The notes under the pieces are model-generated. The model made no database searches. It was not told the DNA's origin and saw nothing but the letters and a program-made list of their open reading frames with translations. The translations under genes were made by a program, and so were the position numbers. From Bacteroidota bacterium (lineage in GTDB: Bacteria > Bacteroidota > Bacteroidia > Bacteroidales > UBA932), in the NCBI GenBank assembly GCA_029567375.1, contig JAKQLB010000318.1, positions 1-60,026 of the forward strand: a stretch of 60,026 nucleotides of DNA. The letters run 5' to 3'. Below are positions 47,908 to 54,501 of the stretch, piece by piece. Numbering within the stretch: the stretch's first letter is position 1; each line of letters begins with the position of its first letter.

Positions 47908-48313
47908 AATTATCATCAACGGTACCGGTGACCTTCAAAGAGCTGCACGCGTTTTTCTCGAAAAGGCGGGCGATAGCAGGATAATCGCATTCTATGGCTC
48001 AATGGGGGCCGGTAAGACTACATTTATCACCGCATTGTGCCGCCAATTGGGAGTGAGGGATGTGGTCAACAGTCCCACTTTCACCATTGTCAATGAATAT
48101 GCCGATTCGAAAGGAAAGCGATTCTATCATTTCGACTTTTACCGCATCAATCGCCTCTCCGAAGCGATGGACATAGGCCTTTATGAATATTTTGATTCGG
48201 GTGAATACTGCTTTATAGAGTGGCCGGAGATGATAGAGGAACTGCTGCCGGAGGAAACTCTGAAGATCAACATTCTTGTGGATGACGCCGATACCAGAAG
48301 ACTATTATTCTAA
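47900..48313 (+). CDS. tsaE: tRNA threonylcarbamoyladenosine biosynthesis ATPase TsaE
   Basis: A 137-residue P-loop ATPase with Walker A GSMGAGKTT, SPTFTIVNEY and HFDFYRI, the TsaE signature set. It drives the TsaB-TsaD complex that transfers threonylcarbamoyl to A37 of ANN-decoding tRNAs. The start at 47900 gives the conserved MIEIIINGTGDL beginning and overlaps the end of yifB; a longer frame upstream is a by-product of the overlap. Its pathway partner tsaC is at 34849. Confidence 0.95.
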   Translation: MIEIIINGTGDLQRAARVFLEKAGDSRIIAFYGSMGAGKTTFITALCRQLGVRDVVNSPTFTIVNEYADSKGKRFYHFDFYRINRLSEAMDIGLYEYFDSGEYCFIEWPEMIEELLPEETLKINILVDDADTRRLLF

Positions 48314-48332
48314 AATTCTAATACCATTAATT

Positions 48333-49547
48333 ATGAGAAAATTCATATTCTCCATTGCAGCAATCATGCTTGCAGTTTCATTTTGCCAATGCTCTCCAAA
48401 AAGTCAGAATGATGAAACTGCCACGGATGTACCTCAGGAGCAAATCCTGGTAGGTGCCGAATCGCTTGACGAATATTTGCCTTTGCTTGAGGGGAAGAAG
48501 GTAGGCCTGCTCTCCAACCGGACCGGCATCCTTTCCAACGGCACTCACCTGCTCGACACCCTCCTTTCAAGTGAAATAAACGTAGTCTTCATTCTCTCGC
48601 CCGAACACGGTTTCAGAGGCGATGCCGATGCCGGCGAATTGGTAAGCAGTTCCGTTGACGAAAAGACCGGAATACCCATCCGTTCGCTCTATGACGGCAA
48701 AGGGGGCTATCCCACACAAGAAACAATGGATGAGATTGACATAATGGTCTTTGACCTTCAGGATGTAGGCTGTCGCTTCTATACCTATATCACTACCATG
48801 ACAAAAACAATGGAGGTCTGCGCCAAAAATGGCAAGAAAATGATCATAATGGACCGCCCCAATCCGATTGGATTCTATGTTGACGGTCCCATTCTAGACA
48901 TGAAATATAAATCTACGGTAGGCTATCTGCCCATACCTGTAGCACACGGTATGACTTTTGGCGAACTGGGCATGATGATAAACGGTGAAAAATGGCTGCC
49001 TGACGGCATTCAGTGCGATATTACCGTCATAAAATGCAAAAATTATACACACCAATCACGCTATACTCTTCCGGTTAAGCCTTCGCCCAATCTTCCCGAC
49101 ATGCGTTCGATATATCTCTATCCTTCGATGTGTTATTTTGAAGCTACTCCCGTCAGTCTCGGACGCGGTACTGACAAGGCATTCCAGATGTATGGCCACC
49201 CCAATATGAAGGGATACAAATATTCATTTACACCGCGCAGCGTGGATGGAGCAAAAAATCCCCCCCAGCTTGACAGAGAATGCTTCGGAGTGGACCTTCG
49301 TACTGAGCCACCTATAGAGCAGATCAATGCCGCAGGCATCAATCTCGAATATGTTATCGATGCATACCGCAACCTCAACCTCGACTCCCACTTCTTTCGT
49401 TCATTCTTTGAACTGCTCATAGGCCAAGACTACGTCAGAAAAATGATAATGTCCGGAGCTTCTGCCGAAGAAATTAAAGCAATGTGGGCCGAAGATGTCG
49501 CCTCATTTAAAGAACAAAGACGACCTTATCTACTATATGAGGAATAA
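48333..49547 (+). CDS. DUF1343 lipoprotein, exo-beta-N-acetylmuramidase NamZ-like
   Basis: A 404-residue protein with a lipoprotein-like signal (AVSFCQCS, Cys near residue 18-20) and the DUF1343 domain: GKKVGLLSNRTGIL, LSPEHGFRGDADAG, VFDLQDVGCRFYTYITTM and DRPNPIGF. Members studied in Bacillus and Tannerella remove terminal N-acetylmuramic acid from peptidoglycan fragments. It would act in the periplasm, possibly in wall recycling. It starts 19 bases after tsaE, so it is probably the third gene of the yifB operon. Confidence 0.9.
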   Translation: MRKFIFSIAAIMLAVSFCQCSPKSQNDETATDVPQEQILVGAESLDEYLPLLEGKKVGLLSNRTGILSNGTHLLDTLLSSEINVVFILSPEHGFRGDADAGELVSSSVDEKTGIPIRSLYDGKGGYPTQETMDEIDIMVFDLQDVGCRFYTYITTMTKTMEVCAKNGKKMIIMDRPNPIGFYVDGPILDMKYKSTVGYLPIPVAHGMTFGELGMMINGEKWLPDGIQCDITVIKCKNYTHQSRYTLPVKPSPNLPDMRSIYLYPSMCYFEATPVSLGRGTDKAFQMYGHPNMKGYKYSFTPRSVDGAKNPPQLDRECFGVDLRTEPPIEQINAAGINLEYVIDAYRNLNLDSHFFRSFFELLIGQDYVRKMIMSGASAEEIKAMWAEDVASFKEQRRPYLLYEE

Positions 49548-49548
49548 T

Positions 49549-49611
49549 GTATGTAGTGGGTAGTATGTAGTGGGTAGTATGTAGTTTGTAGTAGGGAGTG
49601 TGTAGTGTTGA
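49549..49611. repeat. Heptamer array F1, after namZ
   Basis: Nine in-phase units of the form GTNNGTA on the plus strand (GTATGTA and GTGGGTA alternate, then GTTTGTA, GTAGGGA, GTGTGTA, GTGTTGA), starting one base after the namZ stop. It is the most regular array, with identical units alternating every 14 bases. Confidence 0.8.
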
Positions 49612-49632
49612 GGAGTTCAGAAGGATTCGAAA

Positions 49633-49681
49633 CTAGAAACTAATAACTTACTCCTTACTCGGAACTTAGAACTCAGAACTC
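49633..49681. repeat. Heptamer array F2, opposite orientation
   Basis: Seven units whose minus strand reads GAGTTCT, GAGTTCT, AAGTTCC, GAGTAAG, GAGTAAG and two degenerate members. The G-rich strand is the coding strand of the convergent gene at 49747-50961, so F1 and F2 point toward each other, as their genes do. A terminator hairpin follows directly. Confidence 0.75.
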
Positions 49682-49729
49682 ATAAATAATAGAGAAGCGA
49701 TCCTAAGGGGTCGCTTCTCTATTATTTAT
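49682..49729. terminator. Bidirectional terminator between namZ and the barrel gene
   Basis: A perfect 19-bp inverted repeat (left arm 49682-49700, right arm 49711-49729) with a 10-base loop. The GC-rich inner part AGAAGCGA and AT-rich outer part give U-runs on both strands. Confidence 0.9.
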
Positions 49730-49746
49730 ATATATAGGTTATGTCG

Positions 49747-50961
49747 CTACATCCTGAATCTCAAGCCCAATTCGAGATTGAACTGTATCGGCTGGTTGGT
49801 ACGAATGCTGAGCGGCTGGTCGTTGTCAAAATAATAGGCCACCGAAGGTTTGAAGGCAATACCTACATGTTGTACAAACCAGTACTCCACACCCAGACCC
49901 AAATTTACCGACCACTGCACACCGTCAACTTTTTCACGTCTGTCCGTACTGCCATAGACATAACGCCTCATAATACATTTATCCACCATACCGCCCGCTG
50001 ATACAAATGCGTCAAACCTTGGACGGTCAACAAAATTGTAAGAGAGATGAAGTGGAATGCCGAGGTAATGAAGCTGACTTGAGACATTGGGGTGTCTCTC
50101 CAAATCTATCATAGCGCTGTACTGCGTATGAAGATAGGTATAAACAAGGCCTGTACCTACATATAATCTAGGCACTATGGCTTGTTTGAACTGGAGACTG
50201 AACGACAGCGGTATGTCAAACTGCGGCTCATCATCAAAGGGGATAATGCTACGGGACTCAAAAGCGGTGCCTAATTCCGACGGAGCATATTTCGGCCCAA
50301 GATCAGCTATTAAGCCATCCTTTGATGCAACTTGTGATATATTGGAAGATATAGCGAGTAATGATGTGTTCTTTTTGAAGTTACGGCGTGTGGGCTTTTC
50401 TGTACCGAGAATCCCTTCAAGATCCTTTTCGTCCCATTCTTGGATTACAGGATCCGTAGCAGGCTTATCCTCTTGTACAACTACCTGCTCTTCTGCTACA
50501 TCATCGTCTGATACAACCATATCGGCGACGACTTTCTCCTCAACAACCTTGTCGGCTGTGGTTAAAGGACTCTCTGTAAGTTTATCTAAAGTATGTGTTA
50601 CGGGACTAGAAACGGACTTTGCCTGGTGAGCCGTTACACCTGAAGAGGTAAGACCGGCAATTTGTTCTGCCATGGGCATGACATCCTGATCAGCCGGAGT
50701 TTCCGTTTCGGGGAGAATACTCTCCGCCATGACTGAAGGAGCAGAGGGTAATGTGGAAATCTCATCTCCCCTAAATATAAACAATCCGGCTGCAAATACT
50801 GCTGCAGCTGCAACCGAAATGAACGAAACGCGACGCACCACGATCATTCTGTGACGGCGTGCCATCTTGCTGCGGATACCATCCCAAACAGACGCATCGG
50901 GCATCTCAACGCTGGAATCAAGCTTTTCCTGCAAGAGTTTGTATAGATCTTTTTCGTTCAT
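49747..50961 (-). CDS. Anti-sigma-like membrane protein fused to an outer-membrane beta-barrel domain
   Basis: A 404-residue protein with three parts. Residues 1-41 are a short cytoplasmic-type segment (MNEKDLYKLLQEKLDSS). Residues 42-64 are a membrane helix (VSFISVAAAAVFAAGLFIF). Residues 65-190 are an acidic, Val/Thr/Pro/Glu-rich linker, and the last ~190 residues have alternating aromatic strands ending ...FNLELGLRFRM, typical of PorT-like 8-stranded barrels. The start directly follows the ECF sigma gene stop (TGA then ATG), so this is its likely anti-sigma partner. If both ends insert, it would span the envelope. The function is inferred from context and topology. Confidence 0.75.
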   Translation of the reverse strand: MNEKDLYKLLQEKLDSSVEMPDASVWDGIRSKMARRHRMIVVRRVSFISVAAAAVFAAGLFIFRGDEISTLPSAPSVMAESILPETETPADQDVMPMAEQIAGLTSSGVTAHQAKSVSSPVTHTLDKLTESPLTTADKVVEEKVVADMVVSDDDVAEEQVVVQEDKPATDPVIQEWDEKDLEGILGTEKPTRRNFKKNTSLLAISSNISQVASKDGLIADLGPKYAPSELGTAFESRSIIPFDDEPQFDIPLSFSLQFKQAIVPRLYVGTGLVYTYLHTQYSAMIDLERHPNVSSQLHYLGIPLHLSYNFVDRPRFDAFVSAGGMVDKCIMRRYVYGSTDRREKVDGVQWSVNLGLGVEYWFVQHVGIAFKPSVAYYFDNDQPLSIRTNQPIQFNLELGLRFRM

Positions 50962-51531
50962 TCAATATAATTCTTCAATTCTTTTCTGCAGCCATTCCCT
51001 GGCTCTTGAGAGTTGCGACCTGGATGATGCTGAAGATATGCCCAACATCCGGGCGATCTCGTCGTGTTGAAACCCGTCAATGGTGAGGTTGAAGACCGCA
51101 CGGTAGCCCGGAGGCATACTTTCAATGAGTGCGGTAAGCTCTTTTACTCCCATCCTGGAAACGGCATCATCGTTGCTTTGCATCATAGATGCCGCAGGAA
51201 CATTGTCAATCTTGTCTGCATAACGAAGTGCGTCGTTTTTACGAAGTACCATCAATGCTTCATTGACAAAAATCTTCCTCATCCAACCTTCAAAAGAACC
51301 TTCACCTTTGTAGGAACGGAGTTTCATGAAAACTGTCACAAATCCGTCCTGCAAAACATCCATCCCCGCATCACGGTCGCCCATATATCTGATACATAAA
51401 GCCAGCATCTTTGGCGCGTAGGCATCGTACAAGCGCTTCTGAGCTACGACATCTTTCTTCAAACACCTCTGGATGAGATCATTTAAATCAGTATCAGTTA
51501 AAGCCGACTGCTTTTTCATTGACTGTTTCAT
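50962..51531 (-). CDS. ECF RNA polymerase sigma factor
   Basis: A 189-residue extracytoplasmic-function sigma factor. Region 2 is RLYDAYAPKMLALCIRYMGDRDAGMDVLQDGFVTVFMKLRSY with GEGSFEGWMRKIFVNEAL, and region 4 is MPPGYRAVFNLTIDGFQHDEIARMLGISSASSRSQLSRAREWL. The ATG at 51531 is chosen; an upstream extension would overlap the divergent TPR gene and its promoter. The partner encoded next probably holds it at the membrane. A -7 box TATTTTTG lies 10 bases before the start, so its message is almost leaderless. Confidence 0.95.
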   Translation of the reverse strand: MKQSMKKQSALTDTDLNDLIQRCLKKDVVAQKRLYDAYAPKMLALCIRYMGDRDAGMDVLQDGFVTVFMKLRSYKGEGSFEGWMRKIFVNEALMVLRKNDALRYADKIDNVPAASMMQSNDDAVSRMGVKELTALIESMPPGYRAVFNLTIDGFQHDEIARMLGISSASSRSQLSRAREWLQKRIEELY

Positions 51532-51541
51532 TATATAGATG

Positions 51542-51620
51542 CAAAAATAGCACAAAATGTTGCATCGGGTGCAAAATATTTTTGGAGTGATTTTTGTTTG
51601 AACATTTATACTTAATTTTG
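51542..51620. promoter_or_regulatory. Divergent promoters of the ECF sigma gene and the TPR gene
   Basis: Minus strand: TATTTTTG (51549-51542) with a TTTG about 22 bases upstream (51575-51572). Plus strand: TAATTTTG (51613-51620) with a TTTG 17 bases upstream (51592-51595). In both cases the box is followed by CA. Spacers are a little off the usual 19-21. Confidence 0.45.
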
Positions 51621-51655
51621 CATATTGCGTACAATATAAAGAATTGTAGAGAAAG

Positions 51656-53329
51656 ATGAGAAAATTTTTGCTAATATTTGCGATAATCATCGCTCCGTTA
51701 CTGTGCACAGCACAGTCACATACCTATCTTGATGCATTACAAGCCTATCAGGTGGGGGAAATAGCCGAGGCTCATTCCCTATTCATCAAAGAGATAAAGG
51801 CAAACCCTGATAATGATGCCGCCCACTTCTATCTGGCGATAATCTATTCGGCTAACGAGAACAGTCACACCAAAGCTGAAGATGAATTCAAGAAGGCTCT
51901 CGCCATTGACCCGAATAACTATTGGTACAAATATTCCCTGGCTCTCTTCTACGCTGAGACGGATAGAATTGAACTGACCACCCTATTACTTGAAGAACTT
52001 ATTGAGGCTTTTCCCAGAAAGAGCGAGCTCTATTTTACGGCAATCAATGCATATCTCAACCAGAACGATATCACAAAAGCTCTGGCCACACTCGATAAAA
52101 TAGAGGGAAAACTTGGCAAAAATGAAATGATAGGTCTGACGAGAATGGACCTTATGAGCAAGCAGGGCACTTACACTGACAAACAACTCTACGACTATCT
52201 TGAGAGTTATTACCAGGATTGCCAGAGTCCGAGAATGGCCACAATGCTCGGTGACCGTTATGCTTCGCTTTACAACGACTCTCTTTCGCTATTCTATTAC
52301 AACCAGGCCATTGATATGGACCAGGACTATTCCCCTGCATATTATGGTCGCGCACATGTTTATCAGGCACTCAGGCAGTATGAACGGTATTTTGCGGATA
52401 TGAGCATATTCATGAAAGATCCGGCCATTTCTCCCCTCCTCAAATCTGAATACCTTAACAAGCTGACCGAGTCGTCACAATTTGTCATGGCATTTCCGGA
52501 GGAGACGGAGCAAATGGTGCTCGATGCATATACCACACATCCGAAAGATGAGGGCATCACCACAATGGCAGGAGTGTTTTTCTACAGAATGGATAAACCC
52601 CACTATGCAATAGAGCTGATGAGACAGAATTACGAAAATCATTCCGATAATCCGGAGGCTGCCATACAATACCTGATGATGCTCTACTACCAGAAAATGT
52701 GGGACGAACTGATACCTGCCTGTGATGGAGTCATTGAACGTTTCGGCTATAATTTTGACATAGTCCAGCTTAGAGGGTTTGCCTACAGCTTGAAGGAGGA
52801 TTACGACTCGGCCATTAGGGATTTCAAACTCATCGCAGCATCTGCACCGAAAGACAGTGCTATAATTGTCTTCTCCAACTCCATGTTGGGCGATCTTTAT
52901 CACCAAAAGGGAGATAGCAAAAATGCCTACAAACATTACAAAAAGGTGCTCAAGACCAATCCGAATTATGCGCCAACCCTCAACAATTACGCATACTATC
53001 TCGCTCTGGAGGGCAAAAACCTCAAAAAGGCGAAAGCGATGAGCGAAATTACCATCAAACAGGAGCCGGACAACCCCACCTATCTAGACACCTACGCCTG
53101 GATTCTTCATCTGCTCGGACAGAACATCGAAGCCAAGGCAATATTCAAACATGCAATGCTCTATGGTGGTAAAGAGAATGCGGTGATTATGGACCATTAT
53201 GGTGATGTACTCTTTGCACTCAAAGAGTATGATCTCGCCTTTGTTTATTGGAATCAGGCCAAAGCACTTGATGACACTCTCGGCATCGAGGAGAAAATTA
53301 AGGCCAAAAAGGCCGAAATCGGCAGATAA
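51656..53329 (+). CDS. Exported tetratricopeptide repeat protein
   Basis: A 557-residue protein with a signal peptide (residues 1-20, LLCTAQ) and TPR-type helical repeats through most of its length; clear units include DNDAAHFYLAIIYSANENSHTKAEDEFKKAL, YSPAYYGRAHVYQALRQYERYF and NYAPTLNNYAYYLALEGKNLKKAKAM. TPR solenoids mediate protein-protein contact; in the periplasm of Bacteroidota they often attach to envelope assembly machines. The EnvC-like gene follows after 2 bases, suggesting a shared role in cell-wall or division processes. Confidence 0.9.
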   Translation: MRKFLLIFAIIIAPLLCTAQSHTYLDALQAYQVGEIAEAHSLFIKEIKANPDNDAAHFYLAIIYSANENSHTKAEDEFKKALAIDPNNYWYKYSLALFYAETDRIELTTLLLEELIEAFPRKSELYFTAINAYLNQNDITKALATLDKIEGKLGKNEMIGLTRMDLMSKQGTYTDKQLYDYLESYYQDCQSPRMATMLGDRYASLYNDSLSLFYYNQAIDMDQDYSPAYYGRAHVYQALRQYERYFADMSIFMKDPAISPLLKSEYLNKLTESSQFVMAFPEETEQMVLDAYTTHPKDEGITTMAGVFFYRMDKPHYAIELMRQNYENHSDNPEAAIQYLMMLYYQKMWDELIPACDGVIERFGYNFDIVQLRGFAYSLKEDYDSAIRDFKLIAASAPKDSAIIVFSNSMLGDLYHQKGDSKNAYKHYKKVLKTNPNYAPTLNNYAYYLALEGKNLKKAKAMSEITIKQEPDNPTYLDTYAWILHLLGQNIEAKAIFKHAMLYGGKENAVIMDHYGDVLFALKEYDLAFVYWNQAKALDDTLGIEEKIKAKKAEIGR

Positions 53330-53331
53330 CC

Positions 53332-54501
53332 ATGAAAAGGCTCCTGCTAATACTCGTAATTCTACTCCATTTTTTGAGCCTATCCGCACAGGATACTTCG
53401 CGCCAGTCGGAGCAGAAAAAGCGGCTTGAGGAGGAGATCGAGTTTATAAACAAGCAGCTCAAGGAGATTCTCTCTAAGGAGAAAGCCAGCACTCTGCAAC
53501 TGACTCTCATCAGCAGAAAAATATCCAACCGCAAAGCCATAATCGAAGGCATTGACAAGGAAATAGCAGAAATCAGTCGCAATATAAACGCAAAAAACCA
53601 CTCAATCCGAACCCTTCAGCGTGAAATCGACACTCTTGAAAGTTATTATGCGCGCCTGGTTCGCAACACCTATAAAAATCGCGATACGAAGGTGTGGTTT
53701 ATGTACCTCTTTGCCAGCGAAAGCCTCGGACAGGGCTACCGCAGGTTTTCTTACCTGAAAAATCTTGCAGATGTTGTCAATGCTCAGGGAGTTAAAATTA
53801 AAGAAAAGCAGGCACAACTCGAACGCGAGAAGAAGGAACTCGAGAATATGAAAAAGAAAGCTGAGGCTACCCGCGCCGAACGTGAGCAGGAGTACAAAGA
53901 ATTACTGCGTGAAGAGACCATTAGCCGTCAAGTGGCGGACAACCTTGCCAAAAGCCGTAAACAACAAATGCGCGAACTGGAGAGGAAACGCCGGCAGGTG
54001 GAAAAACTCAATCGCGAGATAGAAAGCATTCTCAGCAAAGCCGTCAAGACTCAACAAAAAGAGAAAACTCCAATTGATTACACTCTTTCAGGAATGTTTG
54101 AGCAAAATAAGGGAAAACTTCCCTGGCCGGTGGCCAAAGGGGTTGTAATTGGAAAATATGGTGTCCATTACCACCCTGTCTACAAAAATCTCAAACTGCC
54201 GGAAAATAACGGTATAGACATATCCACTTCAAGGAATGCAGAAGTTCTCTGCGTGTTTGATGGAGTTGTCAAGCAGATTATAATGATGCCCGGTTACAAC
54301 CAATGCGTCCTTATCCAGCACGGCACCTATTTTACTTTCTACTGCAAACTGAAAAAGGTGAATGTCAAAACAGGAGACAAGGTGGCTACAGGGGAGCCTA
54401 TCGGTATCCTCAACGAAGAGGGCAATACCTCCGAACTCCATTTCCAGATATGGAAGGGAACTACGAAGCAGAATCCGGCAGTTTGGCTAAGACCACGCTG
54501 A
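53332..54501 (+). CDS. EnvC-like murein hydrolase activator (coiled coil plus LytM domain)
   Basis: A 389-residue exported protein: signal peptide (residues 1-20), a long coiled coil (about 22-235, very rich in Lys and Glu) and a C-terminal M23/LytM domain. The zinc-site residues are partly missing: the first motif is NNGIDIS, with Asn where active enzymes have His, and the last is SELHFQIW, with only one His. EnvC of E. coli is similarly inactive and works by switching on amidases at the septum, so the same is inferred here. The gene is cotranscribed with the TPR gene and convergent with uvrA. Confidence 0.9.
   Translation: MKRLLLILVILLHFLSLSAQDTSRQSEQKKRLEEEIEFINKQLKEILSKEKASTLQLTLISRKISNRKAIIEGIDKEIAEISRNINAKNHSIRTLQREIDTLESYYARLVRNTYKNRDTKVWFMYLFASESLGQGYRRFSYLKNLADVVNAQGVKIKEKQAQLEREKKELENMKKKAEATRAEREQEYKELLREETISRQVADNLAKSRKQQMRELERKRRQVEKLNREIESILSKAVKTQQKEKTPIDYTLSGMFEQNKGKLPWPVAKGVVIGKYGVHYHPVYKNLKLPENNGIDISTSRNAEVLCVFDGVVKQIIMMPGYNQCVLIQHGTYFTFYCKLKKVNVKTGDKVATGEPIGILNEEGNTSELHFQIWKGTTKQNPAVWLRPR

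Follow-up and report, generated by a model that had tools for sequence, protein, structure and literature searches.

The gene pair analyzed in this study encodes an ECF sigma factor and a partner protein with predicted parts in both membranes, and is very probably a sigma/anti-sigma couple of the Dma kind, in which the head of the partner binds the sigma factor and one chain extends to the outer membrane. The pair occupies positions 49747-51531, minus strand, of the window, which is the whole analyzed stretch of 60,026 nucleotides. The gene pairing, homology, domain order and conservation are directly observed, and the barrel is seen by prediction. By analogy with published Dma proteins, the window partner would bind and repress its sigma factor. 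The head would take up the co-translated ECF sigma factor and hold it at the inner membrane; a single helix, with the head inside, would lead into a disordered tether crossing the periplasm; and a C-terminal OmpA/OmpX-type barrel would be inserted in the outer membrane, its loops facing outward. With the head inside and the barrel in the outer membrane, one chain would span the periplasm unless it is cut, and would thus tether the two membranes. A change at the outer membrane would then free the sigma factor, probably through a loosened head, or through cutting of the tether or the helix. One point against this reading is the head, which comprises about 37 residues and has a low-confidence model.

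Pardue et al. (PNAS 2024, 10.1073/pnas.2321910121) is reportedly the founding Dma paper and is said to be the one cited for Dma1/Das1 and Dma2/Das2 of B. thetaiotaomicron. According to excerpts of PMC13088901, the Dma class is found solely among Bacteroidota and has the same four-part order, beside ECF21 sigma factors; the order described for Dma2 is identical to that of the window partner. The same excerpts state that deletion of dma2 raises vesicle production and that das2 is required, that dma1 of B. thetaiotaomicron acts through nigD1, that Dma3 carries a sigma domain at its own N-terminus, and that sensing of an unknown glycan is the hypothesis of the authors for Dma2 (PMC13088901). Das1/Dma1 is also mentioned in an excerpt of PMC12596196. 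The layout of head, helix, linker and barrel with a coupled ECF sigma factor had been proposed in a preliminary description made from the sequence alone; it is indicated by prediction and by relatives, and matches the published Dma layout. That this design is already described as Dma was beyond what the sequence alone could tell the earlier reader. As a possible signal, that reader suggested assembly of the barrel or damage to the outer membrane.

Homology of the window partner to the partner L080 of B. faecis is clear from alignments, and the experimentally studied members of B. thetaiotaomicron were compared by description. The barrel of the window partner shares 36% identity over 154 aa with L080 (E 3e-29), and the two sigma factors share 40% identity over 173 aa. 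Whole-length alignment of the window partner with 13 Bacteroides proteins gives 25-28% identity. L080 was taken as the Dma1 orthologue because a NigD-like gene adjoins it (PF17415 3.7e-34, PF12667 5.8e-19); dma1 of B. thetaiotaomicron presumably adjoins nigD1 in the same way. Close to the B. faecis pair lies another anti-sigma-like protein (L080 6155-7177), FecR-like by eye, which matches the Dma head-plus-helix profile weakly (18 bits, E 5e-4), and perhaps a distant relation of two anti-sigma heads is reflected in these sequences.

Domain order, an adjacent ECF sigma factor and origin in Bacteroidota are common to the window pair and, in the excerpted descriptions, to Dma1/Das1 and Dma2/Das2. 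A single Dma-type partner was found in the window genome, which is 89% complete, compared with three Dma proteins named for B. thetaiotaomicron in the excerpted literature; this copy is new here. In contrast to Dma1, the window pair has no NigD-like gene among the six neighbours scanned, and divergent TPR and M23 genes are found instead. Membrane helix, tether and barrel are shared with Dma3, whereas the sigma factor and the partner of the window are separate genes with adjacent stop and start codons in frame. FecR/FecA-type signalling likewise reports an outer-membrane event to an ECF sigma factor, as proposed for the window pair. In that system the receptor and the anti-sigma factor are separate proteins which meet in the periplasm, whereas the window design is one chain, and no TonB-dependent receptor was found among the six neighbours scanned. 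The window pair looks like a new member of the Dma family and not a new kind of system.

The sigma factor gene (50962..51531, minus strand) encodes a Das-like protein of 189 aa, assigned by Pfam and homology, with Sigma70_r2 (4.5e-11) and Sigma70_r4_2 (1.1e-14) above the Pfam cut-offs. The gene of the predicted Dma-type dual-membrane anti-sigma factor (49747..50961, minus strand; 404 aa) was assigned from homology, a Pfam scan and structure models; its barrel matches in the Pfam scan are all sub-threshold (OMP_b-brl_2 21.7 bits, cut-off 27). The TGA of the sigma gene and the ATG of the partner gene abut directly at 50959..50964 on the minus strand and are in the same frame, as read from the sequence; coordinates, strand and junction are thus as the preliminary description gave them. 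This TGA|ATG junction is present in six of the seven nearest loci, the window copy counted, and the seventh (L008) has a TAA and a short gap. Read-through of the TGA into a Dma3-like chain was considered and found unsupported, as seven natural fusions are without a separate head.

The pair stands alone. Upstream of it lie two genes, one for a TPR protein in divergent orientation (51656) and one for an M23 peptidase (53332), and downstream is a convergent NamZ-like gene (48330-49547). A hairpin with 20-bp arms (49681..49730, strand unassigned; -28.9 kcal/mol, z -6.4) lies between the operon and the NamZ-like gene and is probably a two-way terminator; the terminator scan gave three sites (1.7 in shuffles), and the hairpin was not among them. 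Short imperfect repeats of the type GTAGTGGGTAGTAT were noticed at 49549-49610, between the NamZ-like gene and the hairpin. The block before the sigma start codon (51532..51590, minus strand) is almost identical in seven close loci, the window copy counted, and from this conservation it is probably a promoter. The sigma-70 promoter scan showed no excess (5 sites versus 5.0 in shuffles), and in 48200-54000 no Rfam match exceeded its gathering score. The divergent TPR and M23 genes (51656-54501) are kept in all 11 same-genus loci that reach them, a twelfth locus (L084) ending before these genes. The short flanks of L032-L082 contain no TPR match and one weak M23 match (L067, 21% identity). These genes may share a promoter region or a regulon with the pair, and that the two form the regulon of the sigma factor is a guess.

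The Dma-type partner is widely distributed in its family. With the window protein as query, a match was found in 262 of 299 genomes, the window genome counted, some of these matches covering only part of the partner length; in the good-quality genomes of the family, the number was 136 of 144. A 26-row profile matched 98 of 295 genomes across the order, and a Bacteroides partner as query matched 63 of 101 genomes of its family and 117 of 119 of its genus. Confirmed relatives were not found in viral contigs scanned with the family alignment (A1, 26 rows from 30 family loci, with the window copy entered once and L005, L006, L016 and L031 left out). The literature search on Dma family anti-sigma factors, with Muribaculaceae as a guessed family, gave no account beyond the Bacteroides paper among the papers listed.

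The loci were collected by partner sequence, so that the presence of a sigma gene beside the partner was observed independently. The ORF immediately upstream of the partner encodes a sigma factor in 30 of 30 loci of the family (window copy included), in 20 of 20 loci of other families, and in all 13 named Bacteroides loci. Among 18 further picks from the Bacteroides family, 11 have the adjacent sigma gene (three are already in the 13) and seven are single-chain fusions. For weaker matches, the sigma gene is adjacent in 19 of 20 loci, the exception being L114, and two of the 19 (L100 and L105) are type IX variants. The other-family set (20 loci, 20 genomes) and the weaker set (20 loci, 19 genomes) were both drawn from the 98 matching genomes. 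The preliminary description had asked for the same architecture beside other ECF genes, and in all examined loci except L114 the sigma factor is adjacent or fused.

The pairing was also recovered from the sigma side. A reverse search with the window sigma factor in four Bacteroides genomes gave 11 best matches, all of them sigma factors beside or fused to barrel partners, and the score drops from 74 to 53 bits after the eleventh. These 11 partners correspond exactly to those found by profile A3, counted without one weak 335-aa match (E 0.0097). The best matches of the window sigma in these four genomes are thus barrel-linked sigma factors, and ECF21 is a label taken from papers. The fusions (L054, L060, L063, L064, L067, L068 and L069) are single chains of about 500-600 aa with the order sigma, helix, tether and barrel. 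The membrane helix follows sigma region 4 almost immediately in these chains, and a distinct head is missing. The sigma domain precedes the helix in them, which places that side of the helix in the cytoplasm.

Four parts can be distinguished in the partner. The head (residues 1-37; 50851..50961, minus strand), presumed to bind the sigma factor, consists of two short predicted helices at 3-13 and 23-35, according to the model and conservation. Its L14 and W26 predominate at their positions, in 85% and 93%, respectively, of 41 representatives below 70% identity. The predicted inner-membrane helix (residues 38-64; 50770..50850, minus strand) was assigned from hydropathy and charge, with the positive side N-terminal; its hydropathy is 2.39 with the peak at residues 45-63, and several arginines precede it. 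In all 64 proteins compared, the window included, the flank before the helix has a more positive charge than the flank after it. This set consists of alignment A1 and 38 others; it omits L052, L053 and L057 as close to included proteins, L055, L056 and L062 as the same loci as L071, L079 and L080, all seven fusions, and L095-L126, which were collected later. In L097, L104, L110 and L111 of the weaker set, where the start codon was chosen by script, the helix was not detected at the usual place. The acidic disordered tether (residues 65-199; 50365..50769, minus strand) was recognized by charge, pLDDT and dN/dS, and has a net charge of -19 over residues 65-195.

A full-length AlphaFold2 model with 13 Bacteroides relatives has a mean pLDDT of 46.5, with a helical N-terminus below 50 and strands after residue 200. 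The head helices, like the membrane helix and the tether as a whole, have pLDDT below 50, and the tether has 24-30 from residue 71 to 200. Structure prediction of the parts thus supported the barrel, and the fold of the head is only indicated, because the full-length model is below 50 there; the model is poor outside the barrel, and our reading of the head is not based on its coordinates. In the comparison of the window partner with L080, BLASTP alone found the head at no better than E 0.086. As a control, the head profile was run against 4,328 distinct ORFs of the window and the loci and gave 100 matches at E up to 1, all of which are also matched by the whole-length profile, with none outside the Dma-profile set.

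Selection on the partner was estimated from six close relatives, with values that are noisy for short segments. The dN/dS is 0-0.20 for the head, 0.06-0.34 for the helix, 0.28-0.43 for the tether, 0-0.51 for residues 196-250 and 0.02-0.09 for residues 251-404, and each of the six relatives gives a higher value for the tether than for head, helix or residues 251-404. The sigma factor shows 0.08-0.11 in five relatives. The low dN/dS against close relatives argues that the partner is not a chance ORF.

The C-terminal part (residues 200-404; 49750..50364, minus strand) is a predicted eight-stranded barrel with the long loops L1 (211-251) and L4 (378-391), on the basis of AlphaFold2, fold searches and conservation. 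The AlphaFold2 model of residues 196-404, built with a 14-row alignment, has a mean pLDDT of 69.8 and long strands at 200-210, 252-263, 266-285, 288-312, 316-336, 348-361, 366-377 and 392-403, together with an extra short strand in a loop (339-343). The first long strand is of low confidence (pLDDT about 41-54), and the model stays below 50 over residues 210-245. Foldseek retrieved OmpA, Ail, OprF and other outer-membrane barrels (best E 2.7e-7), and VIA-align gave Z 18.4 to OprF and 16.4 to OmpA; NspA, OmpW and OmpX are also among the neighbours, and larger outer-membrane barrels rank lower. The barrel is therefore predicted by modelling to be of the OmpA/OmpX type with eight strands, the first of low confidence, in agreement with the outer-membrane barrel proposed earlier. 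The acidic linker and the barrel are both upheld, whereas the lengths given for them, about 125 and 190 residues, become 135 and about 205 in the model, the latter counting the weak first strand and the 41-residue first loop. The predicted fold is that of OmpA and OmpX; the window partner differs in its predicted N-terminal tethering to an inner-membrane helix and, from OmpA, in lacking an OmpA-like peptidoglycan-binding domain in the Pfam scan.

In the barrel model, the termini share their side with the short turns, and the two long loops, the first and the fourth, are at the opposite end. As a rule, the side of a barrel that bears the termini is periplasmic. Conservation of L4 among the 41 representatives is 2.75 bits and equals that of the strands, which have 1.58-2.81 (the first strand being lowest), compared with a mean of 1.30 for the tether; F378, D379, R387 and P391 of L4 predominate at their positions, in 88-93% of the representatives. 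L4, a conserved predicted surface loop new in this study, would be the most promising place for a sensing or lid function, depending on the loop borders of the model.

The membrane-spanning chain may not persist as such. It could be assembled across both membranes and then routinely cut in the periplasm, leaving an inner-membrane stub to govern the sigma factor; with regulated proteolysis, the barrel would control the first cut only, which is compatible with the Dma reading. We regard this as the most serious alternative, though on the whole an unlikely one. Regulated proteolysis is a common way in which anti-sigma factors, RseA among them, give up their sigma factor, and the tether is disordered and fast evolving. 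However, no protease of the site-1/site-2 type was found among the six neighbours scanned, where the neighbourhood is a weak argument, and the M23 peptidase encoded two genes from the pair belongs to a type whose usual substrate is peptidoglycan. As sequences, a full-length chain and one routinely cut between head and barrel would both fit.

It is improbable that the hydrophobic segment acts as a signal peptide that has a long n-region and is cleaved off, which would release a mature free barrel unlinked to the sigma factor. Barrel proteins do normally carry signal peptides, and 39 of 64 proteins, the window included, show a loose signal-peptidase pattern in the 21-residue stretch that surrounds and follows the helix end, but a pattern that loose is expected often in a stretch rich in alanine, serine and valine. 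The A.A motif is present in 20 of the 64 proteins, in 15 of these confined to the hydrophobic core. Within a 12-residue stretch across the helix end, a signal-peptidase-like site is found in only 4 of 64; since this becomes 39 with 21 residues, missing sites are a weak argument. Against cleavage also stand the conserved and constrained head before the helix, and the seven fusions, which put a sigma domain there. That the partner is merely a co-transcribed target of the sigma factor is very improbable, as the steady pairing across Bacteroidales, the natural fusions and the genetics for Dma1 and Dma2 in the excerpts of PMC13088901 speak against it, although outer-membrane target genes are common in ECF operons.

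Variants with another outer end support the dual-membrane reading of the window pair. The head and helix of L100, L105 and L114 are of the Dma kind (33-38 bits with the head-only profile) and are followed by PKD and CHU_C ends, in which the CHU_C domain, a type IX secretion signal, takes the place of the barrel. Among the 31 genomes of the L100/L105 family, at least 22 have a best match spanning from residue 3 or earlier to residue 525 or later, among the matches listed, and one of these best matches contains an internal stop. A sigma factor of the window type lies directly upstream in 12 of 12 loci (L115-L126), two of which are those of L100 and L105 themselves. In four of these genomes, the two best window-sigma matches adjoin CHU_C-part matches by coordinates, among the matches listed; L130, a second-rank case, is an adjacent ORF pair with a weak head match (15 bits). 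L114 is a type IX variant without a sigma neighbour, and the window-sigma matches in its genome (G436) are on other contigs. No PorP-like protein was noticed by eye in the ORFs of five type IX regions. The literature search on anti-sigma factors with type IX or CHU_C domains gave no such protein among the papers listed; nearest in subject is PMC7712824, on a type IX C-terminal-domain protein affecting SigP signalling. The Bacteroidales family pairing the Dma head and sigma type with a type IX domain is new here, and suggests that the outer-membrane end of Dma-like proteins is exchangeable. A still more tentative proposal, which we consider unlikely, is a wider class in which head, helix and tether hold the sigma factor, the far end is delivered either as a BAM-type barrel or by a type IX C-terminal domain, and a state of assembly or export is sensed and not a ligand.

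The Dma design is thus wide in a Bacteroidales family outside Bacteroides, a spread that may already be known from the founding survey. The divergent relatives point to the parts that matter, namely the head, the helix and one predicted surface loop. If the type IX variant is real, it would make the choice between ligand and assembly state testable, with two tether ends on the same head; and if the wider class is true, the sensed state would be outer-membrane assembly or export, rather than a ligand.
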